A DNA stretch of 28,955 nucleotides, taken from positions 1-28,955 of the IMG/VR virus record IMGVR_UViG_3300036854_000084, one strand, 5' to 3'. Position 1 is the first letter of the stretch. The number at the start of each line of letters is the position of its first letter. The stretch is from a virus. The translations under genes were made by a program, and so were the position numbers. The notes under the pieces were generated by a model. That model did no database searches, was not told where the DNA came from, and worked only from the letters and a program-made list of their open reading frames with translations. Of this stretch, positions 5,000 through 27,432 are shown one piece after another.

Positions 5000-5628
5000 T
5001 ACAGGCCGCCTTTCAGGAGGAGATCCGCCGCCAGCTCCACCAGCGCGACGCGCTGATCACAGTAGACCGCGCGGGCGGGATCCTGCAGCCGCCCGACCTT
5101 CGAGAGGAGTGTACTCAGGGTGCCGTACTTCTCGCCCGACGCGAGTTCATCGGGGAGGGGCAGCGGGAGGTTCGCGCCAGCGAGTTCCGCCGGGCGGGGC
5201 GCGTAGAGGAGTTCGACGGTCCCGTCGGCGATCGGCGTCGGGATGAGCCGGAAGGTCAGGGTCGTACGGTCGAGATCGGCATAGGCGATCGGAACCGAGG
5301 TGGTGGTCTCCCAGCCAGGCAGCGCGAGATCGGCCTCGAAGGCGTCGGCGGAGGGGAGGGGGCTGCGGACGCCCGCGAGCGTGCGCCAGGACATCCAGAC
5401 GGTGGCGAGCCAGTCGGCGGGATGGCTGACGGAGGTCGCATTGGCGAGGACCGGGATCTCGGTGCGCAGTACGAGCACGCGAGTGGATCGGACCAGCGAT
5501 CGGATCGACGAGTTGAGGGCGTCGAGGACTTCGTCGCGCGTCCAGACCTCGGAGGGGAAGGACGCCCCACCGTCGGGCGGCTCCAGGAGCGCAAGCTGGA
5601 TCTCGGTGAGGATCTCCTGATCGGTCAC
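4999..5628 (-). CDS. Neck/head-tail adaptor-like protein 3
   Basis: 209 residues from a GTG that overlaps the upstream stop; GGAGG lies six bases before it. An N-terminal helical part (TDQEILTEIQLALLEPP, VWTRDEVLDALNSSIRSLVR) is followed by strands (VLVLRTEIPVLANATSVSHP, TLTFRLIPTPIADGTVELLY) and the C-terminal LPLPDELASGEKYGTLSTLL, SKVGRLQDPARAVYCDQR. This last pattern (KYGxLxxLLSKxGRxxDPARAxYC) recurs in adaptor-like proteins of uncultured phages, with which I associate it. It pairs with the gene upstream and immediately precedes the large nozzle-like gene, overlapping its start by one base. Confidence 0.7.
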   Translation of the reverse strand: MTDQEILTEIQLALLEPPDGGASFPSEVWTRDEVLDALNSSIRSLVRSTRVLVLRTEIPVLANATSVSHPADWLATVWMSWRTLAGVRSPLPSADAFEADLALPGWETTTSVPIAYADLDRTTLTFRLIPTPIADGTVELLYAPRPAELAGANLPLPLPDELASGEKYGTLSTLLSKVGRLQDPARAVYCDQRVALVELAADLLLKGGL

Positions 5629-6359
5629 TGATCACCTCCGAGGAGGAGCGGGAGATCTGACGGGGCGAGCTGCACGCGCCCCGTGCGGGTCGGCGCGAGA
5701 TCCCGTGTGCGATCCAGTCCCGCGAACCGCTTGTAGATCTGCTTCGCCTTGAGGAGCTGATTCTCCTCGGCGGCGGCACGGAAGAAGGCGTGGAAGAAGA
5801 GGATGGTCGCCTGCCAGCGCGCGCCGCCTTCCTTGAAGGCCGCGTTATGGATGGCGCAGTCCACCACCACGTCGAGGATCTCGTCGCCGAGATCCACCGT
5901 GTCGGCGTCCTCCGAGAGGACCGGGGTGGCCGAGACGCCGTCGACCAGGACGTTGTTCACGCCGACTCCCGCGGTCGAGGGCCAGATCGCGATCTGGGTC
6001 AGGGAGATCGGCGCCCAGAGGATCGGGGTGGTGGGGACGTCGCCGCCGGAGGCGGTGGTCTCGCCGCGCCAGGTCGGGCGGGCGAGATCGAGTTCGGTGT
6101 AGGAGGTCGCGACCAGCGGGACCGTCCCCACCCGCACCCGCATCCCGTAGGTGAGGGTCGAGGGGAGGGAGACTTCGGGCGTCGCCGCCGCGGTCGAGAG
6201 GACGACCGATCGCCGCCACCGCCCCGTCAGCAGGTTCCAGTCGCGCAGCGTCTCGTTCATCGCGAGCCGCGCCTCGTCGTCGGACCAGAACACGCTCGCG
6301 TCCCACCGGGCCGCCATCAGGACCTTGAGATCGGCGAGCGAGACGGTGGTGTAGGGCAT
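5625..6359 (-). CDS. Neck/head-tail adaptor-like protein 2
   Basis: 244 residues. It begins VSLADLKVLMAARWDASVFW, then SDDEARLAMNETLRDWNLLT, a helical N-terminus. A beta middle follows (VVLSTAAATPEVSLPSTLTY, RVRVGTVPLVATSYTELDLA, ILWAPISLTQIAIWPSTA), with EILDVVVDCAIHNAAFKEGG and FFHAFFRAAAEENQLLKAKQ forming a helical end. The order helix-beta-helix fits adaptor or neck-ring proteins such as those bridging portal and tail. No ribosome site is seen before its ATG, and its stop overlaps the next start by four bases (GTGA). I recognise the pattern from uncultured phages; its ring role is inferred. Confidence 0.7.
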   Translation of the reverse strand: MPYTTVSLADLKVLMAARWDASVFWSDDEARLAMNETLRDWNLLTGRWRRSVVLSTAAATPEVSLPSTLTYGMRVRVGTVPLVATSYTELDLARPTWRGETTASGGDVPTTPILWAPISLTQIAIWPSTAGVGVNNVLVDGVSATPVLSEDADTVDLGDEILDVVVDCAIHNAAFKEGGARWQATILFFHAFFRAAAEENQLLKAKQIYKRFAGLDRTRDLAPTRTGRVQLAPSDLPLLLGGDQ

Positions 6360-6362
6360 GGG

Positions 6363-9077: not shown

Positions 9078-9087
9078 CGCGCCCCGA

Positions 9088-9471
9088 TTAGGTGACTTGG
9101 CGGAGGTTCTTCACCGCGAGGACGACCTCATGCTTCCCGGCGATCGCGGCGGTCGTCCACTCGAAGAGCGCGATATGGCGCTCGACCGGGACGGCTTCGA
9201 TGAGGGTCGTGTCGGTCGTCTGGATGACCCAGGTGAGGAGTCCGGAGGTCGCGTCCACGGTGACGTTGTTGACGTTGAGGACGTTCTGGTGATTGCGGAT
9301 GAGCGAGTCGGTGCCGTCCTGCTTGATGACGTAGAGGGTGAGGGTCAGGGTGAGGAGGGCGGCGAACGGGATCGGCGTGACGCCGTCGTTGCCGACGAGA
9401 GTCGCGGTGTAGGTGCCGGTGGCTTTCTCGGCGATCGGGAAGACCAAGGGGTCGAGCGAGAGGCTCAGCAT
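9088..9471 (-). CDS. BppU-like N-terminal domain virion protein
   Basis: 127 residues; AGGA precedes the ATG closely. It begins LSLSLDPLVFPIAEKATGTY, then TATLVGNDGVTPIPFAALLT and LTLTLYVIKQDGT, followed by QNVLNVNNVTVDATSGLLTW, ERHIALFEWTTAA and KHEVVLAVKNLRQV. The strand pattern and the GxxLLTWxIQxxDTxLxE...HIALFEW core are those of beta-sandwich proteins related to baseplate upper proteins (BppU N-domain) and similar appendage anchors. A role in attaching fibres to the tail is plausible. The call is by pattern. Confidence 0.7.
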   Translation of the reverse strand: MLSLSLDPLVFPIAEKATGTYTATLVGNDGVTPIPFAALLTLTLTLYVIKQDGTDSLIRNHQNVLNVNNVTVDATSGLLTWVIQTTDTTLIEAVPVERHIALFEWTTAAIAGKHEVVLAVKNLRQVT

Positions 9472-10049
9472 AGATCCTCGCTGACGAGGCGCGAGACGGC
9501 GAGGGACTCGGCGAGGAGGTCTGGGGCGGTCACCGCCTGGGCAGTGAGGGCGGAGGCGGCGATGGAGCGGTCGCGCAACTCGACGCAGGGGATTGCCGGG
9601 ATGATGCCCGGGATCGCGGTGAGGATCGCCGAGGGGGTGGAGAACGCCGTCGGGACGGATCGGGTCGGCCGAGCGGGGGCGGAGGTGATCGGCGCCCAGC
9701 TCATTGTCGCGGCTTGACGGAGCTGCGCGCCGTAGGTCGGGTCGATCATCGTCAGCTCGATGCGCGGCCGGGCGGGGCGGGGAAGCGGGCCGGCGAGGAG
9801 CGGCAGCCAGGCGTCGGGCGCGACCACGGTGGGGACGTCGAATGGGACGACGATCTCCAGACGCGTGCCGACCGGGCGGAGCGGGCGCTGCGGCGGCGGG
9901 AGGAGTGGGAAGAAGGTCAGGGAGGCGAGGATGTTCGGCGCCGGGGTGTAGGCGGCGGCGAAGGGCTCCCAGGCGGTGAGGGCCTCGCGCGGGCGGTCCC
10001 GCCGGGAGAGGACCTCACTCCAGTACGGCAGCCAGTTCGAGGGATCCAT
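9465..10049 (-). CDS. Hypothetical protein in the virion cluster
   Basis: 194 residues, starting three bases after the previous stop. It begins DPSNWLPYWSEVLSRRDRPR, then EALTAWEPFAAAYTPAPNIL, a Pro-rich strand region (PLLPPPQRPLRPVGTRLEIV, VPFDVPTVVAPDAWLPLL), TMIDPTYGAQLRQA, and a C-terminal helix-rich ALTAQAVTAPDLLAESLAVS. I do not recognise the family. Position between virion genes and composition suggest a structural or assembly protein. It overlaps the next gene by seven bases. Confidence 0.65.
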   Translation of the reverse strand: MDPSNWLPYWSEVLSRRDRPREALTAWEPFAAAYTPAPNILASLTFFPLLPPPQRPLRPVGTRLEIVVPFDVPTVVAPDAWLPLLAGPLPRPARPRIELTMIDPTYGAQLRQAATMSWAPITSAPARPTRSVPTAFSTPSAILTAIPGIIPAIPCVELRDRSIAASALTAQAVTAPDLLAESLAVSRLVSEDLC

Positions 10050-10052
10050 CGA

Positions 10053-10361
10053 TCAGACTCCGGCGGCGCGGCGGAGGCGGTCTCGGGCTTCGCTGCGCGC
10101 GAGCCGCCGCTCCCACGGGAGACAGCGACCGTCGCCGTGGCACGGGAGGCAGACGGGTCTCATGCAGACCAGACAGAAGGCGCCGGGCTCCTCGCGGAAC
10201 TGTCCCGACGGGCCAAGCGGGATCAGGTAGATCGTCGAGGCGGTGCGGGGCTTCACCAGGACGATCTTGTGGCAATGCCCGCAGGAGATCGTGTCGAACT
10301 CGGCGAACGGCGTCGGTCCGTCGGGGTCGGTGATCGTGAGATACCCGCCAGGCGCGCGCAT
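10053..10361 (-). CDS. Cysteine-rich zinc-binding phage protein
   Basis: 102 residues from the ATG at 10361; longer frames overlap the gene before. The N-terminus (MRAPGGYLTITDPDG) leads to FDTISCGHCHKIVLVKPRTA and then AFCLVCMRPVCLPCHGDGRC followed by LPWERRL. Seven cysteines plus histidines in CxxC groups indicate one or two zinc sites. The pattern CGHCxxIVxVKP...AFCxxCxRPxCLxC...CxPWE recurs in small phage proteins of structural clusters. It may be a minor virion protein or assembly factor, or bind nucleic acid. The zinc call is strong and the role unknown. Confidence 0.8.
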   Translation of the reverse strand: MRAPGGYLTITDPDGPTPFAEFDTISCGHCHKIVLVKPRTASTIYLIPLGPSGQFREEPGAFCLVCMRPVCLPCHGDGRCLPWERRLARSEARDRLRRAAGV

Positions 10362-10363
10362 CC

Positions 10364-10816
10364 CTACCGCTCGTTGGCGTGGACGGTCGCCGAGATCGCC
10401 ACCGCGGAGGCGGTGGGCGTCTGGATGCCGACCCCGTTGGAGGCGGTCGCCGGGGTCGTAATCCGGCAATCGTCGCGGACCGCCTGCCAGCGGATCGTCG
10501 CACGCTGATTCGCCGGGATCGCGAGCATCACCGCGTTGGCGGTGTAGGTCGGCTCGACGGTGTTCAGCTCGCCCGAGTCGGACTCAGTCGCGGCGTCGGC
10601 GGGATCGAGCGGCTGCGGGGTGACCGGCGTGTTGGTGCCGGGGGCGGTGCAGCGCTGCAGCAGCCAGAGGAAGGCATTGTCCGCCGGCGCCGCCTCGGAG
10701 CCGAAGATCAGATCGAAGATCTCCAGCCGGCGCGGGCGGGTCGCGTCGGCCACCCAGGTGCCGAGCGAGGCGGTGGTGGAGGCGGTGCGGTTGAGCTGAA
10801 CGGCGTAGTTCGCCAT
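10364..10816 (-). CDS. Conserved small virion protein (NRTAxxxxSxGTWVAD type)
   Basis: 150 residues with GGAG six bases before the ATG. It begins ANYAVQLNRTASTTASLGTW, continues VADATRPRRLEIFDLIFGSE and then FLWLLQRCTAPGTNT, LDPADAATESDSGE and VMLAIPANQRATIRWQAV, ending ATASNGVGIQTPTASAVAIS. This is a beta-sandwich-like protein that recurs in the structural clusters of uncultured tailed phages; I recognise the pattern but no function is proven. The next gene starts three bases after its stop. Confidence 0.8.
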   Translation of the reverse strand: MANYAVQLNRTASTTASLGTWVADATRPRRLEIFDLIFGSEAAPADNAFLWLLQRCTAPGTNTPVTPQPLDPADAATESDSGELNTVEPTYTANAVMLAIPANQRATIRWQAVRDDCRITTPATASNGVGIQTPTASAVAISATVHANER

Positions 10817-10834
10817 GAAACACTCCTTCGACCG

Positions 10835-10978
10835 TCAAGATCGGCGAGGGCTGGACAGACGCCAAGGATGCCGGCCGATTATAGCGAGGACGAGCGCGAT
10901 CCCCACACCCATGAGGGTCCGCAGCGGCGTCACACTCGGGGCGGGCGGCGCTCCGACCCGGGAAAGGAGGAGGCTCAT
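10835..10978 (-). CDS. 47-aa single-span membrane microprotein
   Basis: 47 residues, starting at the TGATG overlap with the gene before. The sequence is MSLLLSRVGAPPAPSVTPLR, then TLMGVGIALVLAIIGRHPWR and a basic LSSPRRS. One hydrophobic span lies at about residues 21-35 with positive charge after it. The only ribosome site would be within the upstream gene, so coupling is likely. No family is recognised. A membrane microprotein amid virion genes is unusual; it might act in lysis, superinfection exclusion or virion entry, none of which can be chosen from sequence. Confidence 0.5.
   Translation of the reverse strand: MSLLLSRVGAPPAPSVTPLRTLMGVGIALVLAIIGRHPWRLSSPRRS
10878..10883 (-). promoter_or_regulatory. 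Perfect TATAAT inside the microprotein gene, possible internal promoter
   Basis: TATAAT occurs on the minus strand about 60 bases before the next gene (start 10816). The hexamer 17 bases upstream is GTGGGG, far from TTGACA. It also encodes part of the membrane span (Ala-Ile-Ile, using the codon ATA, rare in such GC-rich genes). It could start transcription of the virion genes downstream, but may be coincidence. Confidence 0.2.
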
Positions 10979-11682
10979 CAGAACGCCGCCACTTCCGCCC
11001 ACGCGATCAGGACCGTGAGAATCCCCGTGCCCGCCGCGGGCCAGACGGTGCGGTTCCTGACGACGACCCCTTCGTTCTGCGCGAGCACGATCGGATGGTC
11101 GCCGTCGGCCATCGAGAAGTCCAGATCCATGCCGTCAAACGTCGGCATGATGACTTCTTCGGTCGCGGCGGCCGGATTGACCCGGTTGCCTTTCCGCAGC
11201 GACTGGGCAAACGGGAACGCGTCGAAGGTGTGCGTGCCGGCGGTGAGCGCCCCCGTGGTCGCGATCCGCACGTCGGTCACCAGCGACGTGCCCATGCTAG
11301 TCCGCAGCTTGGCGTTGTTGCCCGTGGGCGTGAGGGTCGTCCCGCCGGTGTGCGACCCGGTATAGCTGCGCACGATGAACGCGTCGAACGAGGTGTGATC
11401 GGTGAGCGTCGCCGCGGTAAACAGCGTCAGCGGCAGAAAGCGGGTCTTGAACTTGGTCAGGACGGCGAACCGGGTCGCGTCCCCCCAGCGAAAGGCGAAG
11501 ACGTGCCCCGCAGTCGCGGTGCCGGCAGCTAAGGTCGCCGCCAGCGTCCCCGTCATCGACTGGATACGATAGTGGCCGAGCGCGCCGTACTCGATGGGAT
11601 AGCAGGCGACCTTGGCCGCCCGGAATGTCGTCCCGGCCACATCCGCCACGATGCCGCTGTTGCCTTGGAGTTGAATCGCCAT
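10978..11682 (-). CDS. Conserved virion structural protein
   Basis: 234 residues from the ATG at 11682, which has TGAGGA about four bases upstream; longer forms to 11766 overlap the gene before. It begins AIQLQGNSGIVADVAGTTFR, has YPIEYGALGHYRIQSMTG, FRWGDATRFAVLTKFKTRF, LRTSMGTSLVTDVRIATTGA and ends in HPIVLAQNEGVVVRNRT and IAWAEVAAF. The start and the xxLAQNEGxVxR motif are recurrent in a beta-rich virion protein family that I know from many phage contigs. A head or tail surface position is plausible. The stop overlaps the next ATG by one base. Confidence 0.75.
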   Translation of the reverse strand: MAIQLQGNSGIVADVAGTTFRAAKVACYPIEYGALGHYRIQSMTGTLAATLAAGTATAGHVFAFRWGDATRFAVLTKFKTRFLPLTLFTAATLTDHTSFDAFIVRSYTGSHTGGTTLTPTGNNAKLRTSMGTSLVTDVRIATTGALTAGTHTFDAFPFAQSLRKGNRVNPAAATEEVIMPTFDGMDLDFSMADGDHPIVLAQNEGVVVRNRTVWPAAGTGILTVLIAWAEVAAF

Positions 11683-11689
11683 CAGATCC

Positions 11690-12073
11690 TCAGTTCCAGA
11701 CCCACGCGATGGTCCATTGCCCGTAGAGCCGAGTGCCGTACCCACCGACGCGTGGCATCCCGTCACCGGAGGGCGCCCCGATCGCGCCCGTCGCGGCGGC
11801 TCCCTCGCCCCCCGGCTGGAGTCCTTCGGTCAGTTGGCTCGTGTTGAAGCCGTAGATCGTGAAGCCGGTCCCGGCGACGATGTCCGCGGCGAACACCGCC
11901 AGGGTCTCGACCATGTGCTCGGTGTCGGTGTGATCGGCCGTCGCCACGGGGCGGATCCACGCCTCGACGAGCGAGCCGGCGACGATGCCGGCCTGCCCCG
12001 TCACCGCGACCGAGGCGTCGGACTTCCCGGGGAACGCGCCGAAGTCCAGAATCGCCGTGCCTTGCGCGCCCAT
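11690..12073 (-). CDS. Conserved small virion protein (GxATLDFGAFPG type)
   Basis: 127 residues from the ATG at 12073, overlapping the previous stop by one base (TGATG). It begins GAQGTAILDFGAFPGKSDAS, continues VAVTGQAGIVAGSLVEAWIR, and has GTGFTIYGFNTSQLTEG and a C-terminal YGQWTIAWVWN. I recognise this as a recurrent beta-rich protein in structural clusters of uncultured tailed phages, without a proven role. Longer forms starting at 12166 overlap the modular gene and are rejected. Confidence 0.75.
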   Translation of the reverse strand: MGAQGTAILDFGAFPGKSDASVAVTGQAGIVAGSLVEAWIRPVATADHTDTEHMVETLAVFAADIVAGTGFTIYGFNTSQLTEGLQPGGEGAAATGAIGAPSGDGMPRVGGYGTRLYGQWTIAWVWN

Positions 12074-13737
12074 CACGCCTCCAGGACGTACGAGAGATGG
12101 CCGCGGACGCCGACCGCGCCGCCCAGATTCAGGACGAGCGCCTGATTCACGGCGGTCTCCAGCCAATGGCCTTGGCCGGGGGCAATCGCGGGGGCGACCG
12201 CGCCGCCGTTGGCCGCCAGACTCATCGCCCCGCTCAGATTGCCCGCGGCGCCGGACTTCCAGCGGGCGGTGACGGCGGCGTCCGCCACGAGGACGTAGCT
12301 CAGGACTTTGACCTTCCGCGTCGCGTCGGCGGCGACGAGCGTGTTATCGCCGCTGGCCGCGACGTCGATCGCTGCGAAGTTGAGCGCCAGACCCCGCCGC
12401 AGATCCATCCGCCAATCGGCGGACCCCGCCGACCCCTGGTTGCTCGTGGTCGTGCCGGAGACCGGAACGGCGGACTGATCCGAGGCGAGGACGACCGGCG
12501 TCGAGGCCGCCATCGTCTTCTGACCCTGGGTGTTGATCCGGCCCGTGAAGGTCGCGTCGAGGAGGAGGGCTGAGGTATTGAGATTGGTGCCGGCGTTGGC
12601 GGTGACGGCGCCGATGACGTTCGATCCGGCCGGGAGGGGAGCGTCGATGGTGGCCGAGGCCCAGAGCCGCCCCGCCGACATCTGCAGGAACTCGTAGTCG
12701 CCATCCGTGTTGGAGGTGTTGGCGGGGGTGGCCTTGCGGATCGCCAGCGCGCCCATGCCGATGTCGCCTGAGAGCGAAGCGGCGTCTTCGTTGTGCGCCG
12801 CCAGCGAGGTCGTGCTAGAAGTGTCTTCGATCGCCTGGAGATGTCCAGCGTTAACGGCCTGCGTGGTCTCCAGGGCCAAGGCGGAGGTATTGAGGTTCGT
12901 CCCGGCGTTGGCGGTGACGGCGCCGGCGACCTGCACCGGATTGGTCGCGGTCCCGCCGGGCACCGCCCCACCGCTCCCCGGCAGCGCCAGACCGAACATC
13001 GTCACCGGATCAATACCCGCCCCGGTGTCGTAGTCGGCGGTCTTGGTCCCCTGCACGTCGATGGGCACCTGGAGCGGTTCCCACGACGATCCCCCGTTGG
13101 ACGAGATGCCAATCGGGAAGAGATTCTCCGACCCGGTCGGCGCCGTCCCCGACAGGATCACATTGGTCTCACGCGATCGGATCGGGTTGGTGACGGTGCC
13201 GCCAGCGACGGCGCCGCCGGAGGCGGGGAGCGCGACGCCGAACATCGTCACCGTGTCGGTGCCGGCGCCGGTGTCGTAGTCGGCGGTCTTCGTGCCGATG
13301 ACGGTGATCTGGTCGGACTGCTTGACGTAGAGTTCGCCCTTCGCCGTGCTGTTGAGGGCGGTGACGTCGCCGTCGGCGGAGGTCTCCGAGGCGAGGGTGT
13401 CGCGACGCCGCGCGATGAGTTGCGTGCCGGTCGGGTTGGCGGCTGAGGCGTCGTCCTCGGTGTACTGCGTCCCACCGCCGACCGAGACCGGGTCGCCGGC
13501 GGTGTCGCGCAGGGTCACCGCGACCGGGTTGGAGTTGGCGAAGTCGAAGACGGTCGCCTTGATCGCGGGATCCACCCCGTCGAGGAGGGCGCCGTCCCCG
13601 CCGCCGCCTCCCCCGCCGATGGTCCGGACGACCAGCCCCGGATCAGACGCGCCGGGCGCCGCGGTCGAGACCAGGGTTTCGAGCGATCCGTCGGCGGAGG
13701 TCAGGACGACTTTGTGAACGGTGGGATCGAGGCTCAT
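12073..13737 (-). CDS. Modular repeat virion protein (fibre or surface-display type)
   Basis: 554 residues assembled from repeated blocks. Block A (E-D-x-A ... R ... T-x-A ... DGD ... L) occurs at about 91-140 and 315-364. Block B, GTKTADYDTGAGxDxVTMFG, occurs at about 148-183 and 230-265. Block C, AVTANAGTNLNTSALxLE/D, occurs at about 273-289 and 377-393. The C-terminal ~120 residues (ALNFAAIDVAASGDN onward, with LVLNLGGAVGVRGHLSYVLE) look like a beta-sandwich. Such block-built proteins occur as head or tail fibres and virion surface proteins. A seven-glycine run lies at about 41-47. No transmembrane or enzymatic motif is visible. It ends by overlapping the next start by one base. Confidence 0.7.
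   Translation of the reverse strand: MSLDPTVHKVVLTSADGSLETLVSTAAPGASDPGLVVRTIGGGGGGGDGALLDGVDPAIKATVFDFANSNPVAVTLRDTAGDPVSVGGGTQYTEDDASAANPTGTQLIARRRDTLASETSADGDVTALNSTAKGELYVKQSDQITVIGTKTADYDTGAGTDTVTMFGVALPASGGAVAGGTVTNPIRSRETNVILSGTAPTGSENLFPIGISSNGGSSWEPLQVPIDVQGTKTADYDTGAGIDPVTMFGLALPGSGGAVPGGTATNPVQVAGAVTANAGTNLNTSALALETTQAVNAGHLQAIEDTSSTTSLAAHNEDAASLSGDIGMGALAIRKATPANTSNTDGDYEFLQMSAGRLWASATIDAPLPAGSNVIGAVTANAGTNLNTSALLLDATFTGRINTQGQKTMAASTPVVLASDQSAVPVSGTTTSNQGSAGSADWRMDLRRGLALNFAAIDVAASGDNTLVAADATRKVKVLSYVLVADAAVTARWKSGAAGNLSGAMSLAANGGAVAPAIAPGQGHWLETAVNQALVLNLGGAVGVRGHLSYVLEA
12884..12930 (-). repeat. DNA-level copy of block C in the modular protein (second copy about 12572-12618)
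   Basis: The stretch that encodes AVTANAGTNLNTSAL is present here and again at about 12572-12618 with only a few base changes, lying in the same frame and orientation about 310 bases apart. Near-identity at the base level, including third codon positions, suggests a recent duplication or ongoing recombination between the copies. Confidence 0.65.
12955..13052 (-). repeat. DNA-level copy of block B in the modular protein (second copy about 13195-13293)
   Basis: These bases encode the GTKTADYDTGAG block and its following Gly/Ala-rich turn. A related copy about 240 bases away differs at scattered third positions, so this pair looks older than the block C pair. Both lie in frame within the 554-aa gene. 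Confidence 0.6.
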
Positions 13738-13747
13738 GGCGCCGCGC

Positions 13748-14233
13748 CTAGCCGTAGGTCGGCTCGAAGTAGCCGACGAGGCGGACCGCGCCGGCGGCGT
13801 TCGCGAGCTTCGCCGTCGGAGAGCGGTTGATCAGGAGGACGTGCCACTTCCCGCCGCGATCGGCGAGCGGGATGGACGGGTCCTCGACGTCGAAGTCCGC
13901 ATAGGGGAGGTCGACGTTGGTCGCCTGGTAGACGAAGGCGGCATTGGCGGCGTACTGGACGCCGTCCGAGGCGGTGAAGCGGTAGGAGGCGAGGAAGCTG
14001 TCTTCACCGAGGGACGCGCCGGTGAGCGTCCGGCGCCCGAAGAACACCAGCTCCCAGGCGAGGTTCTGCACCGAGAAGAACACTAGGTGTCGGATGATCG
14101 AGCGGGAGTGCATCCCGGCGGAGACGGCGGAAATAATCGGGAGGTGCTCGGCGACGGACTGCCCGGTCGTGATGGCGGCGAGGAAGTGCGTCGCCGGATC
14201 CGATCGCGTCGGGAAAACATTCCCCCGCTGCAT
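13748..14233 (-). CDS. Probable virion structural protein
   Basis: 161 residues starting just after the previous stop, without a clear ribosome site, so probably coupled. The sequence contains HSRSIIRHLVFFSVQNLAWE, LVFFGRRTLTGASLGEDSFL, and YQATNVDLPYADFDVEDPSI, ending RLVGYFEPTYG. Alternating hydrophobic strands, with DLPYxD and a GKWHVLLINRS strand, give the look of a beta-sandwich virion protein. I recognise the general type from uncultured phage tail or neck clusters, not a named family. Confidence 0.65.
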   Translation of the reverse strand: MQRGNVFPTRSDPATHFLAAITTGQSVAEHLPIISAVSAGMHSRSIIRHLVFFSVQNLAWELVFFGRRTLTGASLGEDSFLASYRFTASDGVQYAANAAFVYQATNVDLPYADFDVEDPSIPLADRGGKWHVLLINRSPTAKLANAAGAVRLVGYFEPTYG

Positions 14234-14240
14234 CGGCGAC

Positions 14241-14546
14241 TCAGTACGGGATCCCCAGGATGTGCAGGGTGCCGGTGCCGAAGGCCCAGAGATCGGAGAG
14301 TTTCAAGGGGCCGGTCTCGAAGGGGCCGAGGGTGAGCGTGCCGGCGACCGCGATGGAGTTGCCGTAGACGGTGGCGCTGACGGTGTTGGCCGAGCCGATC
14401 TGGATCGCGCCGGTCTCCGCCTGGAGGAGGAGCTGGCGATACGGGATGTCGGAGACGGCGTCGATGGCGCCGGCGGGGCCGCCATAGGCATCGCTGACAC
14501 GCTTGGCGGCGCCGGCGAGGGCGAGCTGCAGGGACCGGGCGGCCAT
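14241..14546 (-). CDS. Small virion protein, beta-rich
   Basis: 101 residues after a strong AGGGAGGAGG site. A helical start (AARSLQLALAGAAKRVSDAY) is followed by IPYRQLLLQAETGAIQIGSA, NTVSATVYGNSIAV and then LGPFETGPLKLSDLWAFGTG, ending LHILGIPY. The pattern QxxxGxIxIG...GPF.TGP.KLSDLYxxG... is one I recognise from small virion-associated proteins of tailed phages that line up beside capsid or tail genes. The role is not established. The next gene starts seven bases after its stop. Confidence 0.7.
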   Translation of the reverse strand: MAARSLQLALAGAAKRVSDAYGGPAGAIDAVSDIPYRQLLLQAETGAIQIGSANTVSATVYGNSIAVAGTLTLGPFETGPLKLSDLWAFGTGTLHILGIPY

Positions 14547-14555
14547 CCCTCCTCC

Positions 14556-14855
14556 CTATTTGTCGACGTTCTGCGGTGAGCGGGACGTGAGGTTCGGCGG
14601 CTCCGGGGGCGTCTCGTTCGGCTCGAAGCGCGTCGGGAGGGACGGGAGGCCGGAGACCGAGTTGGCGGACTCGGCGGTCTCGGTGCGGGTGACGGGCTGC
14701 TTGGCGCCGTCCCACGGGATGCCGGTGAGTCCCTCGCCGGCGTTGTTGTCGCCCTCGGCGTTCGGATCGGAGCCGCGCGAGGTCACCCCGGCGCCGGCGA
14801 GATCGGACGTATCCGGGTAGATCGGGTTGTTGAACGGCGTCTTCAGATCACCCAT
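14556..14855 (-). CDS. Hypothetical acidic low-complexity protein
   Basis: 99 residues with a good ribosome site (GGAGGG, five bases before the ATG). It is rich in Asn, Asp, Pro, Gly and Ser: LKTPFNNPIYPDTSDLAGAG, then SDPNAEGDNNAGEGLTGIPW, and an end LTSRSPQNVDK. It is probably disordered and acidic. No family is recognised. Its place between an adaptor-like gene and a virion protein suggests a structural accessory or chaperone, without direct evidence. Confidence 0.6.
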   Translation of the reverse strand: MGDLKTPFNNPIYPDTSDLAGAGVTSRGSDPNAEGDNNAGEGLTGIPWDGAKQPVTRTETAESANSVSGLPSLPTRFEPNETPPEPPNLTSRSPQNVDK

Positions 14856-16807: not shown

Positions 16808-18007
16808 CTAGGCGGTGAAGCCGTGCAGGATCCGGCTGAGCCGGAGCGCCTTCACGGTCAGGTTGCCGCCGAACAGAATCTGCCCGGAGACCTGGTTGTC
16901 CTCACGCGCGCCCTTGAAGCCGGTGAAGCCGAAGGCGAACTTCGAGGATTGCGCGATGTAGAAACGGATGTACGCGTCGTCGCCCTGGGGGCCGAAGTTC
17001 AGCCACGCGAAGGTCTCGCCCGAGGCGTTGTAATTGCCCAGATCGGTATCGTTCGCGCCGTCCTGCCCCGGGGCGTACTGGCTCATCATGATCGTCGCTT
17101 TGTCGAACTTCAGCCCCGGCCAGTTGATCTCGGGCTGGGTCGTGTCGACGATCTGATGCGGGAGGAAATTCTCCGCGATGAAGCCCATCAGGCGGTTGGT
17201 CGTGACGCCCACGCCGGGGGCCTCGTTGCCGATGACGGTCGAAAAGTAGGAGTGGCGCAGCACCCGGTAGGAGATCGTGGTGTTCAGGGCGGAGACCAGT
17301 CCTGTGGGCGGCGTGAGCGCCGGGAGGACGTCGGCGCGGGTCTGTCCGCCGTAGGAGGGGAAGACGTTCCCCGCCCAGGAGGCATCGGCGCCGTTGTTGA
17401 GGGCCTCCTCGAAGCCGTTGATCTCGGCCGAGCGGTCGTCGCCGGCGAGCGCCTGACCGTGGCGGAACGCGGCGATCTCCAGCATCGCGGAGATGGTCAG
17501 CGCCGCCTGCTGCATGTCGGTCCGGATGACGGAGAAGGCGGCGCGCGGACCGGCCATCTCGACTTCGAGATCTTCCAGGAACTCGGTGACGTTCACCTCG
17601 TAGTAGCGCGGGGTGAAGAGCATCCCCGAGCGGGTCTGCCGACGCTTCACGTCGAAGGTCGCGCCCTTCTTATAGGCGCCGCCCTGCATCGGCTTAAACA
17701 TGAAGTTTTCCTGGATCTGCGGCCCGATCCACTTGCGGGTGAAGCGCGCCTTGCACATCGCGATGACGGGGCCGGCGCGGAAGTAGCCGTCGACCACCCC
17801 GGGCATGATCTCCTTGGTCGTGACGGTGTTCACGTCGTCGAGCTGAATCGCGCCGATGACGAGGAGCGACAGGGGCGCGAGGAGATCGCGATCGGGGTGG
17901 AGGAGGTGGAAGAGGCCGAGGAGGAGGCTCACGGCGCAGGCGGTCAGGCGGGGGTGTCCCGCCAGCCACCGCAGGGCGGCGTCCAGTCGACCGAGGCATC
18001 GAGTCAC
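16808..18007 (-). CDS. Major capsid protein with hydrophobic N-terminal extension
   Basis: 399 residues from a GTG at 18007, seven bases after GGGAGGG. The body, from about residue 57 (LDDVNTVTTKEIMPG), matches a capsid family I recognise from uncultured tailed phages: FTRKWIGPQIQENF, GGAYKKGATFDVKRRQTRSG, FTPRYYEVNVTEFLEDLEVE, LMGFIAENFLPHQIVDTTQP and GPQGDDAYIRFYIAQSSKFA. It is expected to form the icosahedral shell with an HK97-type fold. Residues 1-55 are unusual, with two hydrophobic stretches, LTACAVSLLLGLF and LLAPLSLLVIGAI. No ATG, GTG or TTG with a ribosome site offers a shorter start, although an ATT directly before the conserved part is conceivable. Frame extensions upstream of 18007 are shadows of the scaffold gene. 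Confidence 0.9.
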   Translation of the reverse strand: MTRCLGRLDAALRWLAGHPRLTACAVSLLLGLFHLLHPDRDLLAPLSLLVIGAIQLDDVNTVTTKEIMPGVVDGYFRAGPVIAMCKARFTRKWIGPQIQENFMFKPMQGGAYKKGATFDVKRRQTRSGMLFTPRYYEVNVTEFLEDLEVEMAGPRAAFSVIRTDMQQAALTISAMLEIAAFRHGQALAGDDRSAEINGFEEALNNGADASWAGNVFPSYGGQTRADVLPALTPPTGLVSALNTTISYRVLRHSYFSTVIGNEAPGVGVTTNRLMGFIAENFLPHQIVDTTQPEINWPGLKFDKATIMMSQYAPGQDGANDTDLGNYNASGETFAWLNFGPQGDDAYIRFYIAQSSKFAFGFTGFKGAREDNQVSGQILFGGNLTVKALRLSRILHGFTA

Positions 18008-18020
18008 AGGTAAACCCTCC

Positions 18021-18845
18021 CTATGAGGTGCGCGTCGCCTGCAGCCGCTCGTACTCCGCGACCGCGGTGTCGAGCGTGTGCGCCGCGGCACCTTCTTTGG
18101 TGTCGAGGACATCGAGGACGGAGGGGCCGGGACCACCGCGCAGTGGGAAGGGCTGGCCGATCGATGACTTGAGCTTCTCGGCGAGTCGCTTCTCCACTTC
18201 GTCGTTGATCCGCTTGTCTTCCGCCTCTTTGTGTTTCGCGGCGACCTTCTCGCCGAACTTCTCGTTGTAGGCATCCTGCAGGGAGAAGACCCGCCCCGGC
18301 TGGCCGGCGATCGGCTTCCCGAGTTTCGGGTTCCCCACCAGCTCGCGCATGTTCAGCGGCTCGCCGAACAGTTGGTGGTGCGTGAAGCCGGTGTCCTGCA
18401 TGAACGCGACGACGTCGACGTAGGAGCGTTCCCGCTCAGTGAGCGTGGAGTCGACGAGCTGCTGGATGGCGTCTTTGTCGAGCACCGGCGGGGGGCGGTG
18501 GTCGCCCTCGCCGTTCCCGTCGCCGCCCTGTTCGAGCGCCGCCAGCTTCGTCTTGAGCGTGGGGTACTCCTTGAGCGCCGCCTCGTTCTTCGTGTACCAC
18601 TCCTGGTTCTTCGTGTAGAGTGCGGTGGCCTCGTCGAGCTTCGCCTTGGCCGCCTCGCCCTGCTTCTTCAGATCGTCCATGTGCTTCGAGTAGTCCGAGC
18701 GAGCCAGGACGCCGTCCCCCACGAGGATGACGGCATCCTTGACCTCCGGCTTCTCGAAGACGGCCTGCACCTGTGATCGGAGATCCGCCGGGATCTTCGC
18801 GAGCACGCCAGCCAGGAAGGACGTTCCGTCTTCAAAGGCTCCCAT
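18021..18845 (-). CDS. Scaffolding protein
   Basis: 274 residues from the ATG at 18845, which has GGGAGGA four bases upstream; an earlier in-frame start at 18863 lies before this site and is rejected. Scaffolding proteins guide capsid protein into a procapsid and then leave. The sequence is charged and helical, without cysteine. A coiled-coil stretch at about residues 50-105 includes KKQGEAAKAKLDEATALYTK and YPTLKTKLAALEQ. A second helical region lies near the end (KHKEAEDKRINDEVEKRLAE). Position immediately before the capsid gene, length and composition all fit. No protease motif is visible, so a fused head protease is unlikely. Confidence 0.8.
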   Translation of the reverse strand: MGAFEDGTSFLAGVLAKIPADLRSQVQAVFEKPEVKDAVILVGDGVLARSDYSKHMDDLKKQGEAAKAKLDEATALYTKNQEWYTKNEAALKEYPTLKTKLAALEQGGDGNGEGDHRPPPVLDKDAIQQLVDSTLTERERSYVDVVAFMQDTGFTHHQLFGEPLNMRELVGNPKLGKPIAGQPGRVFSLQDAYNEKFGEKVAAKHKEAEDKRINDEVEKRLAEKLKSSIGQPFPLRGGPGPSVLDVLDTKEGAAAHTLDTAVAEYERLQATRTS

Positions 18846-20980: not shown

Positions 20981-23122
20981 CTACTTCTCGCTTTCCGTCA
21001 CCGTGGACCGCCCGTCGCTTTTCTCTTCCTGCTGGGGCGGCGCCTGTCCCGATGCTTTCCGGCCGGCGGGGTTCTGCGTCAGCCCGATCCCCAGGAGGGA
21101 CTGCGCCTGCAGCCGCTCGGTGATGGTGGTCGGGATCCGGAGTTCGAGAAGCTGCCCCGAGGCGACGTCGATCGTGAAGGTCCGCCCCGTATCGGGATCC
21201 TGGAACTGCGGCGGCGCGCCGCCCTGCCCCATCATCGCGAGCGCGGCCGGATTGGCCATCGCCTGCTGGAGGAGGCCTGGGAGGACGGTAGGGGGTGGTG
21301 GCTCCAGGGGAGGGAGGGGGATCGCCGGCGGGGCGCCGACGTTGGGCGTTTCGAGCGTCTCGTGGAGCGACCAGAAGTCGTAGTAGCCCATGCGCGCGAG
21401 CTGGAAGCGCATCATCTTGCGCTCGGAAGCGTCCATCGCCAACACGCTATTCGGCGCCACGATGAACTGCAGCGACTGATGGATGAATTCCGCCCGCTCG
21501 TCCCGGGTGGTGAGCGCGGGATCGAGTTCCGGGGTGTAGCCGTCCTGACCGGGAGATTTCGCCGGGACCAGCGTGTTCGGGTCGAAGTCGAAGTCGGCGA
21601 GGCTCATCCCCGCCGAGCCGAGGATCTGCACCCGCTTGGCTTTGCTGAGGAACTGGAAGTAGTTCACCTTCATGATCTGCGCGAAGTCGCGCAGGAAGGC
21701 TTCGACGTTGCGCGCTTCGGCGCGGATCTCCGGGGTGAGGGCTTCGTAGTACTTCTGGATGGTGTCGGCGGAGGGCATCTGCCGAAGCTGCAGGAGCGCG
21801 GTGAGGTTCGCGGTACCCGCCAGATCCGTAAACTTCGTCGTCAGCTGCGTCCACAGCTCCAGGCACATCGAGAGGACCTGGGCGGAGGGGCCGTCTTCCT
21901 TCTGCCACGGCGAGCCGAACCCCGGCATCGTCTTGACGCGTTTGCCGGGGCGCCGCGGGTCCATCAGCTTCATGGTCGCTTCGGAGACCGCGTTGCGGTT
22001 GTAGGTGATGTCGGGATCGACCCACTGGCGGATCCCGAGGCGGGCGTCGTGAACGGTCTCGTTGATCGCGTCCTGCACCGGGAGGAGATCGTTGAAGAGG
22101 GGGACGCCGAGGAACTGCCACGGGACCGACCAGAGGCGGAGGCGACAGACGGGGTAGAGGCCGTGCCAGTAGGTGTTGGGACCGTCGCTGACCTGGAGGT
22201 CGTCGGTGGCCACGAGGAGCCGCCCACGGGGGTAGAGTGGCTCCCCCGGCTTGACGACGTAGGCCCAGTTGGATCCCGGCGTGCCCATCGGGATCGGCTT
22301 CCCCGTGAGGTTGCGCGTGCGATCCTGGAAGTACGCCCGGTAGAGGACGATCGAGCCGCGGCGCGGGCGGCGGGCGGTCGCGGCGGTGCCCGAGGCGATC
22401 TGATCGAGGGGATCCGCCGGGGTGAGAAGCCGCGAGAGGCCGGAGCGGAAGCGGCCCATGACTTTGCCCAGCGCCGTCTCGGTCGCCGGTCGGAAGAGGT
22501 GCGCCTTGGTGGGATACATCCCGCGCAGGACGTTGACCGAGTGCTCCTCGCGCAGGCAGACCCCTTCCCAGTCCTGGATCGAGCGGGAGCCGGGCGGGGG
22601 GCGCAGGGGGAGGGTGTCGCGGCAGTCGCGCGCGGAGAACTGGTGCCCGCCGCCGAGCGGGATGTGCGGGTTCCAATCGATCCCGAGGTCGCCGGTTCCC
22701 CCGGCGAGCGAGTACTTCACCGTGTCGCCCAGATCGAGGTCGAGCATGAAGGTGATCCACTCGACCAGGAGGTACTTGTTGAGGAGGTCGGCCTGCGCCT
22801 GCGACTCCGGCGGCCCCTTCCACCCTACCACCGGCTTGAAGTCGGTGATCGCGCTGACATGCGCCTGCATCGCCTTGCGGGTCTCGTTGATCGTGACCTG
22901 CGGGAGGTATTTGAGCTTGCGCTGCTCGGCCGAGAGCTGCTCGCCGACGACGTACTGGTAGGCGCGCTCGATCCCGTCGTAGGAGGGGTCGGACCGGTTG
23001 ATCAGGTCGCCTTCCTGGATCCATTCGCGGAGCCAGCCGAGGACGCGCGGATCGCCCTTTTCGAGCGACTCGGCGGTGGTCGCCGGGAGGTCGAGGACGC
23101 CGGACGCAGAGAAATCAGCGAT
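20981..23122 (-). CDS. Portal protein with apparent ATC start
   Basis: About 713 residues, close to the 725 of phage P22 gp1. The portal is a dodecameric ring at one capsid vertex through which terminase drives DNA and to which the neck attaches. Recognisable parts are a helical N-terminus (GDLINRSDPSYDGIERAYQY), the central LFNDLLPVQDAINETVHDAR stretch of the stem region, and the long helix EALTPEIRAEARNVEAFLRD. The C-terminal ~130 residues are Pro/Gln/Ala-rich. Protein-like sequence begins IADFSASGVLDL, with the ATC at 23122 lying seven bases after GGGAGG. No ATG, GTG or TTG is in frame before the Met in RKAMQAHV. The upstream GTG at 23224 would add 34 Ser/Pro/Arg-rich residues overlapping the previous gene, so I reject it. 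Confidence 0.88.
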   Translation of the reverse strand: MADFSASGVLDLPATTAESLEKGDPRVLGWLREWIQEGDLINRSDPSYDGIERAYQYVVGEQLSAEQRKLKYLPQVTINETRKAMQAHVSAITDFKPVVGWKGPPESQAQADLLNKYLLVEWITFMLDLDLGDTVKYSLAGGTGDLGIDWNPHIPLGGGHQFSARDCRDTLPLRPPPGSRSIQDWEGVCLREEHSVNVLRGMYPTKAHLFRPATETALGKVMGRFRSGLSRLLTPADPLDQIASGTAATARRPRRGSIVLYRAYFQDRTRNLTGKPIPMGTPGSNWAYVVKPGEPLYPRGRLLVATDDLQVSDGPNTYWHGLYPVCRLRLWSVPWQFLGVPLFNDLLPVQDAINETVHDARLGIRQWVDPDITYNRNAVSEATMKLMDPRRPGKRVKTMPGFGSPWQKEDGPSAQVLSMCLELWTQLTTKFTDLAGTANLTALLQLRQMPSADTIQKYYEALTPEIRAEARNVEAFLRDFAQIMKVNYFQFLSKAKRVQILGSAGMSLADFDFDPNTLVPAKSPGQDGYTPELDPALTTRDERAEFIHQSLQFIVAPNSVLAMDASERKMMRFQLARMGYYDFWSLHETLETPNVGAPPAIPLPPLEPPPPTVLPGLLQQAMANPAALAMMGQGGAPPQFQDPDTGRTFTIDVASGQLLELRIPTTITERLQAQSLLGIGLTQNPAGRKASGQAPPQQEEKSDGRSTVTESEK

Positions 23123-23135
23123 GGCGGATCCTCCC

Positions 23136-23393
23136 TCAGCCGTGGTGCTCGTCGGTGACGGCGAGCGCGACGGGCTGGAGCGGCTGCCCGAAGGTCCAGA
23201 TCCAGAGCTGGAGGTTCTCCCCACGCGCGACCCGGGCGCGCTCCTCCTCGGAGAAGATCCACTCGGTCAGGATCCGCCCGTCCCGCCAGACCAGCGCAGG
23301 GAGGGTCTGGTACTCGGGCTGCGTCTTCGCGTACTCGACGAAGATCGGCTCGGGATCGGCGGCGAGGAGCGCGAGATCGGCGGAGGGCTCCAT
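23136..23393 (-). CDS. Conserved small phage protein of unknown function
   Basis: 85 residues, starting one base after the previous stop codon. It reads DLALLAADPEPIFVEYAKTQ, PEYQTLPALVWRDGRILTEW, then a helical FSEEERARVARGEN and a beta-rich LQLWIWTFGQPLQPVAL. This is a compact globular protein that I recognise as a recurrent neighbour of terminase and portal genes in uncultured phages, without an assigned role. The ATG is followed by normal coding sequence, so the start is secure. Its stop lies 13 bases before the ATC that appears to begin the portal, with the portal ribosome site (GGGAGGAT) in between. Confidence 0.8.
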   Translation of the reverse strand: MEPSADLALLAADPEPIFVEYAKTQPEYQTLPALVWRDGRILTEWIFSEEERARVARGENLQLWIWTFGQPLQPVALAVTDEHHG

Positions 23394-23394
23394 C

Positions 23395-23898
23395 TCAGGA
23401 TCCAGTCGGGGCGTCAGGGAGGGCGGAGGCGTTCGAGAGGTCGACCCCGGGGCCGAACACCCGTCCCTCCGGCTCCTCCGGGTGCCGCTGAGCCGTGGCG
23501 CCGAAGCGGTGCTTGGCCTCCGGGGTCGGCTGCTCGCCGCCGGCGTACGACTTACTGAGGGTCGGAAGGTCGGCGTTGGACGGGTCCTGCGCCCAGCGGC
23601 GGAAGACCATCGGCTGCCCTTCGCCGTTGCGGTAGGCCTGCTCCGCCTCGCGCTCCACCTGCCGGAGCTTGCGGAGGGAGTCGACGAAGACCCGATCGCC
23701 GCGGCCGTCGGTCGTGTAGAAGCCCCGGAAGCCGGCGGTCTTCACCCCGCCGATGTCCATCGCGCGGGTCTGCGGGATCCAGGACATGGGACGGGCGCAG
23801 TGGAGGGGCGGGACGGCGGAGGCGCCGACCGCCGCCGGGCGATAGACGTCGACGGCGATCTGGCCGCAGACGCTGCAGAAGTAATCGTGGAGCGGCAG
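23395..23898 (-). CDS. Zinc-ribbon phage protein with apparent CTG start
   Basis: 167 residues if begun at the CTG at 23898. The N-terminus (M/L)PLHDYFCSVCGQI, followed about 22 residues later by HCARPM, forms a zinc ribbon (Cys8, Cys11, His33/Cys34), as in FmdB-like and related small phage proteins. After it come MDIGGVKTAGFRGFY, VDSLRKLRQVEREAEQAYRN and GEGQPMVFRRWAQD, a conserved phage layout of unknown function. A TAG lies in frame at 23914-23916. Between it and the ribbon there is no ATG, GTG or TTG, and the CTG lies six bases after GGAGG. The first ATG (23787) would remove the whole ribbon and has no ribosome site. An ATC directly before the CTG is a less likely start, being only three bases from GGAGG. 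Confidence 0.8.
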   Translation of the reverse strand: MPLHDYFCSVCGQIAVDVYRPAAVGASAVPPLHCARPMSWIPQTRAMDIGGVKTAGFRGFYTTDGRGDRVFVDSLRKLRQVEREAEQAYRNGEGQPMVFRRWAQDPSNADLPTLSKSYAGGEQPTPEAKHRFGATAQRHPEEPEGRVFGPGVDLSNASALPDAPTGS

Positions 23899-23920
23899 GA
23901 TGCGCCTCCTTCCCTACGCC

Positions 23921-24602: not shown

Positions 24603-25184
24603 TCAGCTATGCCAGAACAGCTCGTCGTGGATCCGGGCGACGACCGCCTCGATCTCCTGCGCGACGGTCCGGCCGCGCTTCTCGGCGCGGTGCTTCAGCT
24701 CCTCTAGCTGTCCCGGGGTGAAGGGGAGGTCGACCCCGCCGATCGCAATCGAGGCGAGGCGACGGATCGCCGCGAGGAGGGCGGCGGGGGAGTCGGTCGA
24801 TCCAATCCCCGCGACCGCCTCGATCTGATGGCGGTCGTCGGGGCTGAGCACGCGCTGCTGATCGACGACGACCTCGTAAGGACCGGGGAAGGCTGCCGCG
24901 CGGACGACATCCAGGAGGGTCTGCCCGGTGGCAATCAGCCAGTCGCCGGTGGTGGCGGAGAGCGTCGTCCCGTCGACGAGGCGGACCGTCTGGGGCGCGA
25001 CCAGACGGACGGCGGTCAAGAGGGGCGGCGTCTTGCGGACGCGCAGGCGCGCGAGGCCCGAGGGGGCGACCGAGGCGGCCGGGGTGGACGGGGTCGGCGA
25101 CCCTCCCCCTTCATTCGCGGGTCCGGGCGTCGAAGTGGAGCGCGGTGACTCCTCCGTCGGTGAGGTCGTCGGCGAACTCATCAT
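24603..25184 (-). CDS. Hypothetical protein with PGDYL-like fold segment and C-terminal ribbon-helix-helix-like region
   Basis: 193 residues. The start is one of two adjacent ATGs (25184 or 25181); a GGAGG site lies three and six bases upstream, so 25181 has the better spacing. It overlaps the end of the terminase gene by about 70 bases. The first 45 residues are a Ser/Thr/Pro-rich linker. The middle, TVRLVDGTTLSATTGDWLIA, resembles the DG-x-(PGD)-W/Y-L-I core found in many small phage proteins. The C-terminus, LEELKHRAEKRGRTVAQEIE, has the spacing of an Arc-type ribbon-helix-helix (L..L...A...GRT...EI), a DNA-binding fold that dimerises. A regulatory or DNA-end role is possible but not shown. 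Both domain assignments are by eye. Confidence 0.6.
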   Translation of the reverse strand: MMSSPTTSPTEESPRSTSTPGPANEGGGSPTPSTPAASVAPSGLARLRVRKTPPLLTAVRLVAPQTVRLVDGTTLSATTGDWLIATGQTLLDVVRAAAFPGPYEVVVDQQRVLSPDDRHQIEAVAGIGSTDSPAALLAAIRRLASIAIGGVDLPFTPGQLEELKHRAEKRGRTVAQEIEAVVARIHDELFWHS

Positions 25185-27432
25185 CAGCCTCCAGACGGGC
25201 GTCGGCTTCGGCGGCCGTCGTCGGGGTGTTGCGCCAGTCGGGAGCGGCGACGGCGTGTCCCCCTGCGGCGATCCGGGCCTCCTCGCCCTGCCGGATCGCC
25301 GCACGGCGCCGGCGCTTCTCCGCGATCGGCTCAGCCTCCCCGCCGGCCAGCCGCCAGGCGACATAGTAACCGATCGCGGAGGCGAAGATCGCGTCGTCGA
25401 ACTGGCCGCGGGCGTGCTCGGCGTTGGCGAGCAGATCCGGCGTGATGAAGTGGCGCAGCTCCGATCGGGTCGTCGGGGAATTGAGGATGAAGTCGGGCTG
25501 CGACGAGATCGGATCCACGGTGATCACCGCGTCACGGAACGAGGTGAGGAGGATCGGGCGGGAGCGGGGGGAGGTGTACCAGCCGATCTTGGTCGAGTAG
25601 CGGTGGTCGGGGTCGCGCGCGTCGGCGTATTCCCAGACGTAGAAATGGGAGTAGCCGAGGTGGAGCTGCAGGGTGTCCTGGGTGGCGAGCCCGTGACTAT
25701 TGGTCTCGATCGCCGCCATCGCTTCGATCCCGTCTTCGTCGGCGTAGAAGCGCCCGATCGCGTCGACGATGAAGGCGAGCTGCTTGGTGTCGACGAGATT
25801 GCTGACGTACTGCGCGACTTCCTCGGCGGGCTCGTCGATGGTGGGCTCGCGGACGACCGAGACGACCGAGTATTCCTGCCCGAGGCCGTCGGCGACGTCG
25901 ACGCCGAGGACGTAGCGGCGCCGACCGCGAGGGCGAGGGTATTCCCAGATCGCGAGGACCGAGGCCCGGAGGGAGGGGAGGGCGGCGAGATCGGTGGCGG
26001 CGAGGCGGCGGAAGCCGTACCCAGGGGGGACGGGATAGGCTTCGGCGGCGATCGACGAGGCGGTAATCGATCCCAGCCGGGGCGCGAGCGGCGGCGGGGG
26101 GCGGCGCAGGGCGGAGGGCTGCGGATCCGGGTGGAGCGTCTCGGGGAGGGGCGCGAGCCGGCGCAGCTCCGCGATCTCGCGCGCGGGCTCGACCGCCCAG
26201 ACATCCTGCAGGCGGCGCCGCGACCCGGCGGCGTCGATCTGATCGAGCTGCTCGATGGTGAAGATCGCCTTGCCGGCGTACTGGAAGCACTCCTGGTCGT
26301 CGGAGGGGTACTCCTTCAGGAAGGCGCCCAGCTCGCCTTTGCGCGTGTAGAAGGCGCGGGTGGTCTCGTACCAGTAGAGCTGATCGCGCGAGAGGGAGAC
26401 GGCGTGTCCCAGCCAGCGGTGGAGTTCGCGCTCGGCTTTCGCGGCGATTTCGAGCGTCTGGGGGGAGGGGGTCCAGTCGGGCGGCGCCGGGAGGGAGTAT
26501 TTCTGCGGCTCCACCCCCCAGGGGATGAAGACGTTGGTGAAGCGCCCGAGCCCTTCGGCGGCCGTCTGCCAGTGCTGGTGCCACCAATCCCCCGCAAACT
26601 CCGCGGTCGACTCTAGGATGACGAGCGTCTCGGGGTGGATCGGGATCGTCGGGAAGAGCGCCGTGTCGAGCTGCTCGGGGTTCTCCCAGGTCGCCAGCTC
26701 GCTGATGTGCACGACGCTGTAGGTCTGGCCGCGGCCGATCGCGCCTTTGGAGCCTTCCGCTCCGCTCACGGCCTGGAGGGCGCCGCGGGTGGACTTGCCC
26801 CAGGCGGTCTTGAGGAAGGAGCCGTTCGAGAATCCCATCTCGCGATTCTTCACAAAGGGGAACCGGGAGGGGCGGAGGAACCAGGGGAGGTGGTCGTAGA
26901 TCCGCCCCACCATCCGGAAGAGGTACCCGGCTTGATCTTCCACATCCGCCCCGCAGAGCGCGCGGACGTGCGATCGGGTCAGCAGGCGATGCGCGAGCAG
27001 ACTCTCCGCCAGGGTACTTTCGCCGAGTTGTCTCGCTTTCAGGATGTTCAGGAGGAGGCCGTCGGGATAGCCGGATGCGAGGCGGTCCTTCTCCAGCCCT
27101 CCGAGCACATCGAGGGTGAAGCGCTGCGACTCCCAGAGGGGGAAGAGGGGGCGGAGGCCGCGGGCTTCCTGATCGATCACGATGAACGAGGCCGCGAAAT
27201 ATTGGTAGTCGAGGATCACCCGCAGCCGGGTCGTCGCGATGAAGTGATCCTCCTCCGGGGTGAGCGAGCGGGAGAGCCCTTTGGGCGTCTGGAGCGCGGC
27301 GAGGATCCGGGTGCGATCGCGCGTCTCGGCGACCGGGTAGATCTGGAGGCCGTGCGGGTAGAGACGGGCGAGCGCCTCGGAGGAGCGGAGCAGGGCGGAC
27401 TCGCGCGCGGCGACGACGTCAGGATGATACAT
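25111..27432 (-). CDS. terL: Terminase large subunit (packaging ATPase and nuclease)
   Basis: 773 residues. This motor pumps DNA into the procapsid and cuts it. The ATPase domain holds a Walker A-like motif ILKARQLGEST at residues 130-140, a Walker B-like VVHISE at 240-245 with the catalytic Glu at 245, and a coupling motif LEST at 273-276. The C-terminal RNase H-like nuclease shows YVLGVDVADG (metal-binding Asp about 512-514), IETN with Glu576, and FDDAIFASA with Asp679-680. A proline-rich linker at about 435-470 separates the two domains. The variant Walker A (KARQLGxST rather than GKT) is normal for many phage terminases. No Shine-Dalgarno site precedes the ATG, and coupling to the overlapping 59-aa gene is likely. 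The length is somewhat above the usual 450-650. Confidence 0.95.
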   Translation of the reverse strand: MYHPDVVAARESALLRSSEALARLYPHGLQIYPVAETRDRTRILAALQTPKGLSRSLTPEEDHFIATTRLRVILDYQYFAASFIVIDQEARGLRPLFPLWESQRFTLDVLGGLEKDRLASGYPDGLLLNILKARQLGESTLAESLLAHRLLTRSHVRALCGADVEDQAGYLFRMVGRIYDHLPWFLRPSRFPFVKNREMGFSNGSFLKTAWGKSTRGALQAVSGAEGSKGAIGRGQTYSVVHISELATWENPEQLDTALFPTIPIHPETLVILESTAEFAGDWWHQHWQTAAEGLGRFTNVFIPWGVEPQKYSLPAPPDWTPSPQTLEIAAKAERELHRWLGHAVSLSRDQLYWYETTRAFYTRKGELGAFLKEYPSDDQECFQYAGKAIFTIEQLDQIDAAGSRRRLQDVWAVEPAREIAELRRLAPLPETLHPDPQPSALRRPPPPLAPRLGSITASSIAAEAYPVPPGYGFRRLAATDLAALPSLRASVLAIWEYPRPRGRRRYVLGVDVADGLGQEYSVVSVVREPTIDEPAEEVAQYVSNLVDTKQLAFIVDAIGRFYADEDGIEAMAAIETNSHGLATQDTLQLHLGYSHFYVWEYADARDPDHRYSTKIGWYTSPRSRPILLTSFRDAVITVDPISSQPDFILNSPTTRSELRHFITPDLLANAEHARGQFDDAIFASAIGYYVAWRLAGGEAEPIAEKRRRRAAIRQGEEARIAAGGHAVAAPDWRNTPTTAAEADARLEADDEFADDLTDGGVTALHFDARTRE

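Follow-up and report, generated by a model that had tools for sequence, protein, structure and literature searches.

The portal gene of a soil phage appears, from comparison with its relatives, to begin at ATC and not at ATG, and near-cognate starts behind strong Shine-Dalgarno (SD) sequences seem to be a functional practice in its phage group, not a sequencing slip. The virus record that we analysed, 28,955 bases long and here called the window, comes from an uncultivated soil-phage group. On its minus strand, the gene for the terminase large subunit (terL; 25111–27432, phrog_2) is followed by a few small genes, a zinc-ribbon-like gene (23395–23898), an 85-residue gene with an ATG start that adjoins the portal upstream and is kept in some relatives (23136–23393), and the portal gene itself (20981–23122; 713 codons counted from ATC). 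Judged by sequence comparison, genuine near-cognate initiation that is compensated by a strong SD, as a trade-off within the packaging cassette, is the reading that we hold to be very probable.

The portal gene and its apparent ATC start

The portal was identified through phrog_156, a portal family matched by 5 of 15 orthologues, and through a match to a Tunturiibacter phage portal (24.6%, E 7e-29); no match was found among PDB sequences. With terL about 2 kb upstream, the combination of portal-family homology and a position beside terL marks the gene as a Caudoviricetes portal. Along the minus strand, the TGA stop of the 85-residue gene (23138–23136, preceded by GGC) is followed by the SD sequence GGGAGG (23130–23135), the spacer ATCCGCC and the ATC codon (23120–23122), and the portal reads from 23122 as ATC GCT GAT TTC TCT GCG TCC GGC. 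The SD lies 7 nt from the ATC and has a duplex energy of −11.4 kcal/mol. Local RNA folding at the start is not more stable than that of shuffled sequences (z −0.06).

Among the IMG/VR portals with a readable N terminus, about 60 carry ATG or GTG exactly at the column of the window's ATC, and a conserved (A/P)(D/E)FSxSG motif comes right after the start column in related portals. After de-duplication, the survey of portals comprised 68 canonical starts and two ATC starts, the second being that of L104 (IMGVR_UViG_3300012206_000007), which reads GGAGGTGTGCT ATC GCC GAT CTG at this site and whose frame lacks any canonical codon from the preceding stop to the ATC. Comparison of the two ATC portals gives dN/dS values of 0.23 for codons 2–84 and 0.21 for the remainder; the N-terminal codons are therefore under purifying selection at the protein level. 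A pattern search for starts of the form ATC-Ala-Asp-Phe returned 22 chance matches, none of them to this gene.

Initiation elsewhere in the frame would have to use either a GTG upstream (23222–23224) or the methionine at codon 85, the sole canonical codons nearby, and we consider it highly improbable. Upstream of the ATC, the frame stays open as far as 23266 with no other canonical codon. The GTG lies within the conserved 85-residue gene without an SD, and the extension that it would add has no counterpart in relatives. Codon 85 is the first ATG, GTG or TTG downstream, deep within conserved sequence, and a start there would drop 84 residues under purifying selection (dN/dS 0.23–0.59). Both sites were rejected on SD, conservation and dN/dS. 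A preliminary description of this DNA had placed the portal start at the ATC, 7 nt after a ribosome site that lies past the preceding stop, had found no usable ATG, GTG or TTG in frame before a deep methionine, and had regarded the residues added by the GTG at 23224 as Ser/Pro/Arg-rich shadow sequence. The homologous column agrees with the ATC as start position, and the comparison of portal N termini that it had proposed places the homologues' starts at the ATC column and not at the later methionine.

An apparent CTG start in the neighboring zinc-ribbon gene

The zinc-ribbon-like gene, which shows conserved Cys pairs in alignment and has no match in PHROGs, offers a parallel case. Its start context is AGGAGG CGCATC CTG CCG CTC CAC GAT TAC, with the CTG (23896–23898) at the homologous start column and the SD AGGAGG (23905–23910) 6 nt away at a duplex energy of −11.7 kcal/mol. 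The second non-standard start that had been reported 776 bases from the portal ATC is thus borne out. The same column holds CTG in L094, L095, L116 and L118, ACG in L147, and ATG, GTG or TTG in the rest, with ATG or GTG in most. We left the L114 gene out of the count; it has CTG at the column but TTG two codons downstream. Several of the near-cognate zinc ribbons leave no room for a hidden canonical start because a stop lies within a few codons upstream; the least certain of them is L118, whose frame is open for a long way upstream.

Near-cognate starts across the phage group

For the survey, we grouped the ORFs of the fetched loci into families, located each start column by alignment and inspected members without a nearby ATG, GTG or TTG. 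The final count demands an SD of −6 or stronger, although the same 17 cases remain in these families when that filter is removed. These 17 near-cognates, among 648 distinct starts, comprise eight CTG, six ATC, two ATT and one ACG, all of them codons for which low-level initiation is known, and none is AAG or AGG. They fall in terL (8/77), the zinc ribbon (6/74), the portal (2/70) and one head-region gene (1/40). The terL gene begins with ATG in the window and with a near-cognate in eight relatives, namely ATC in L168, L208 and L227, CTG in L157, L195 and L197, and ATT in L220 and L225; the head-region case is an ATC in L144/L163. The remaining surveyed families yielded no near-cognate start, including that of the major head protein (16808–17866, minus strand; phrog_9953 in 10 of 20 orthologues). 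The identity of this head protein rests on PHROGs because its AlphaFold model is poor (pLDDT 33). We rejected candidate non-canonical starts in MPPEVLTG, VAIQLDDVNT and other families, where the start column was ill defined, canonical codons lay upstream and the SD was weak.

Two control groups passed through the same pipeline and criteria, phiC31-like and D3-like phages, gave 0/273 and 0/376 near-cognates (0/649 in total), and the difference from 17/648 is significant in a test that treats the sequences as independent, although they are only partly so (Fisher p=7e-6). Near copies among the 17 reduce the independent events to roughly 11–14. On the terL tree the near-cognate label requires at least five changes, all forced by supported branches, and on the zinc-ribbon tree it needs three to six; in the terL clade of L157, L220 and L225, the near-cognate state is retained while the codon differs. 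Larger stretches of five relatives held no additional gene with a convincing near-cognate start. A pattern search for ATH-started terL genes gave no matches, the pattern being too narrow even for L168, and the Tunturi portal as a control query retrieved no relatives.

That the window's codon is really ATG, misread in sequencing or assembly, was one refutation that the preliminary description had offered, and we judge it very improbable. The ATC is a single copy in a metagenome contig, and the portal of the sister locus L094 starts with ATG; an error at this one base is conceivable. Plain error nevertheless fits poorly with a second, independent ATC portal in L104 and with the recurrence of CTG, ATC, ATT and ACG in other genes of relatives; it would leave the strong SD at each case as an unexplained coincidence. 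The 96 full-length portal loci, some of which share one contig, include none that is broken internally. The group-wide pattern cannot be ascribed to error because error predicts AAG and AGG equally, disregard of the SD and broken frames, none of which was observed.

Shine-Dalgarno strength tracks the start codon

A strong SD is present at every accepted near-cognate case. The median duplex energy of the 17 near-cognate starts is −10.6 kcal/mol, compared with −5.1 kcal/mol for the 244 canonical starts in those families (p=1.3e-8). Across the four families, the medians for pairing with the anti-SD are graded, from −4.0 kcal/mol for ATG through −6.0 kcal/mol for GTG/TTG to −10.6 kcal/mol for near-cognates; every step reaches significance, and the trend holds after the values are centred by family. 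Among canonical starts, the medians are about −2.3 to −2.7 for terL, about −5.4 for the portal and about −10 for the major head protein. These data are best read as a trade-off between start strength and SD strength in the phage group. Canonical starts also often overlap the upstream stop and may depend on translational coupling, which would be harder for a near-cognate start; this alone could account for the weaker SDs at canonical starts.

Initiation, dosage and host

At near-cognate codons, fMet-tRNA pairs with a mismatch, which IF3 normally rejects. We propose that the portal would be translated from AUC and the zinc ribbon from CUG, presumably by way of the host's own initiator tRNA, with a near-optimal SD at 6–7 nt holding the ribosome at the near-cognate codon and, by raising occupancy, offsetting the weak codon. 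The terL, portal and zinc-ribbon genes could each then be served by AUG with a weak SD, by GUG with a stronger SD, or by AUC, CUG, AUU or ACG with a very strong SD, and all three routes probably yield the modest output needed by packaging genes. We infer initiation at AUC itself, its low yield and any benefit that it brings. The preference of IF3 for strong codon–anticodon pairs has been discussed (PMC10158994). Reporter output from near-cognates is leader-dependent and reaches ~0.1–3% of AUG in E. coli and 5–100% in clostridia (PMC9680021); the figure for AUC in E. coli reporters, only ~0.1–3% of AUG, counts against the explanation that we favor (PMC9680021).

An initiator tRNA encoded by the phage and reading AUC or CUG would account for several near-cognates in a single virus group, but different near-cognate codons would require different tRNAs, and we consider this extremely improbable. 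A tRNA search found none in the window, which is a genome fragment; the ~70-kb relatives gave nothing but tRNA-Thr(CGT), in two of them, and a single low-scoring match not called by ARAGORN. The phage initiator tRNA was rejected, as nothing initiator-like occurs in the window or these relatives. The two tRNA-Thr genes with anticodon CGT are in L376 (from IMGVR_UViG_3300043621_000137) and L377 (from IMGVR_UViG_3300009146_000002).

Portals with ATG in relatives indicate that the ATC codon is not required. The suggestion that ATC keeps the portal at low copy agrees with the distribution of near-cognates, which occur in terminase, portal and a neighbor and never in the major head protein; equally, these starts may have a strong SD that makes up for the weak codon and brings expression back to normal. 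A near-cognate codon paired with a strong SD might be an evolved dose setting for packaging genes, holding motor and portal low relative to capsid and possibly responding to the state of the host's initiation factors, and we put this forward as a doubtful proposal. The main rival to a dosage role is a host whose initiation is permissive, in which ATG drifts freely wherever the SD is strong and no dosage function is involved; this is plausible, if somewhat short of an even chance. Hosts do differ widely, as the range from 0.1–3% of AUG in E. coli to 5–100% in clostridia illustrates (PMC9680021), and differing codons at homologous sites resemble drift. Yet the families with strong SDs, the head protein and others, lack near-cognates even though drift should be easiest there.

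The sole match in a bacterial genome is L157 (QHVT01000038.1), which belongs to an Acidobacteria gp7 MAG and has 39% portal identity; its terL has a CTG start immediately behind a TAA stop. This contig could represent a provirus, or a phage sequence that was binned wrongly. Searched through 297 genomes of that phylum, the portal profile was found in one, the MAG itself, and because of this single occurrence the MAG does not settle the host.

Relation to known near-cognate starts

Single near-cognate starts, as in infC, and SD compensation for GUG and UUG are already known. The infC gene for IF3 in E. coli starts at AUU (Butler 1987 and Brombach and Pon 1987, both cited by PMC9845219). The phage genes resemble infC in that a conserved gene has a near-cognate codon where it truly begins, with low, IF3-sensitive initiation presumed. 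They differ in that infC is one host gene under autoregulation, whereas in the phages several packaging genes use four codons and autoregulation is not evident. Belinky et al. 2017 (PMC5622118) described how SDs compensate for weak start codons in prokaryotes, and the phage group likewise pairs a weaker start codon with a stronger SD. Their work covered GUG and UUG and recorded two CUG and one AUU switches in 61,358 AUG starts (PMC5622118), in contrast to the 17 near-cognates in 648 starts here. In Ralstonia phage RsoM1USA, too, some genes have been assigned CTG or GTC starts (PMC6389784), but these come from the annotation of a single genome, without comparative or SD evidence. In the open-licence literature that we searched, we did not find recurrent use of several near-cognate codons in the packaging cassette of one phage group.

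Gene finders limited to ATG, GTG and TTG would lose or mis-start such genes, and for this phage group that puts terminase and portal, both markers in virus taxonomy, at risk of wrong N termini. The group also provides a natural series in which members of the same families start at ATG, GTG, CTG, ATC, ATT or ACG and have SDs of corresponding strength, and because this series exists, both the trade-off between start and SD and the tolerance of a host for near-cognates can be tested with reporters.

Additional observations

Few relatives of window positions 1–14800 occurred among the fetched loci, and the long tail-side ORFs of this part that were tested (minus strand; for example, 1016–4999 and 6366–9077) had no Pfam match at E 0.01. 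In the window (16808–18352, minus strand) and in L100, L126, L142 and L163, the open frame of the major head protein extends upstream past its usual start and includes a hydrophobic stretch, LFHLLHPDRDLLAPLSLLVIGAIQLDDVNT, which leaves the true start ambiguous. In L157, L220, L212, L213, L155, L219, L222, L223, L226 and L215, terL consists of two separate open frames with a break at about residues 375–490, and this arrangement in several distant relatives points to a terminase that is split or carries an inserted element.
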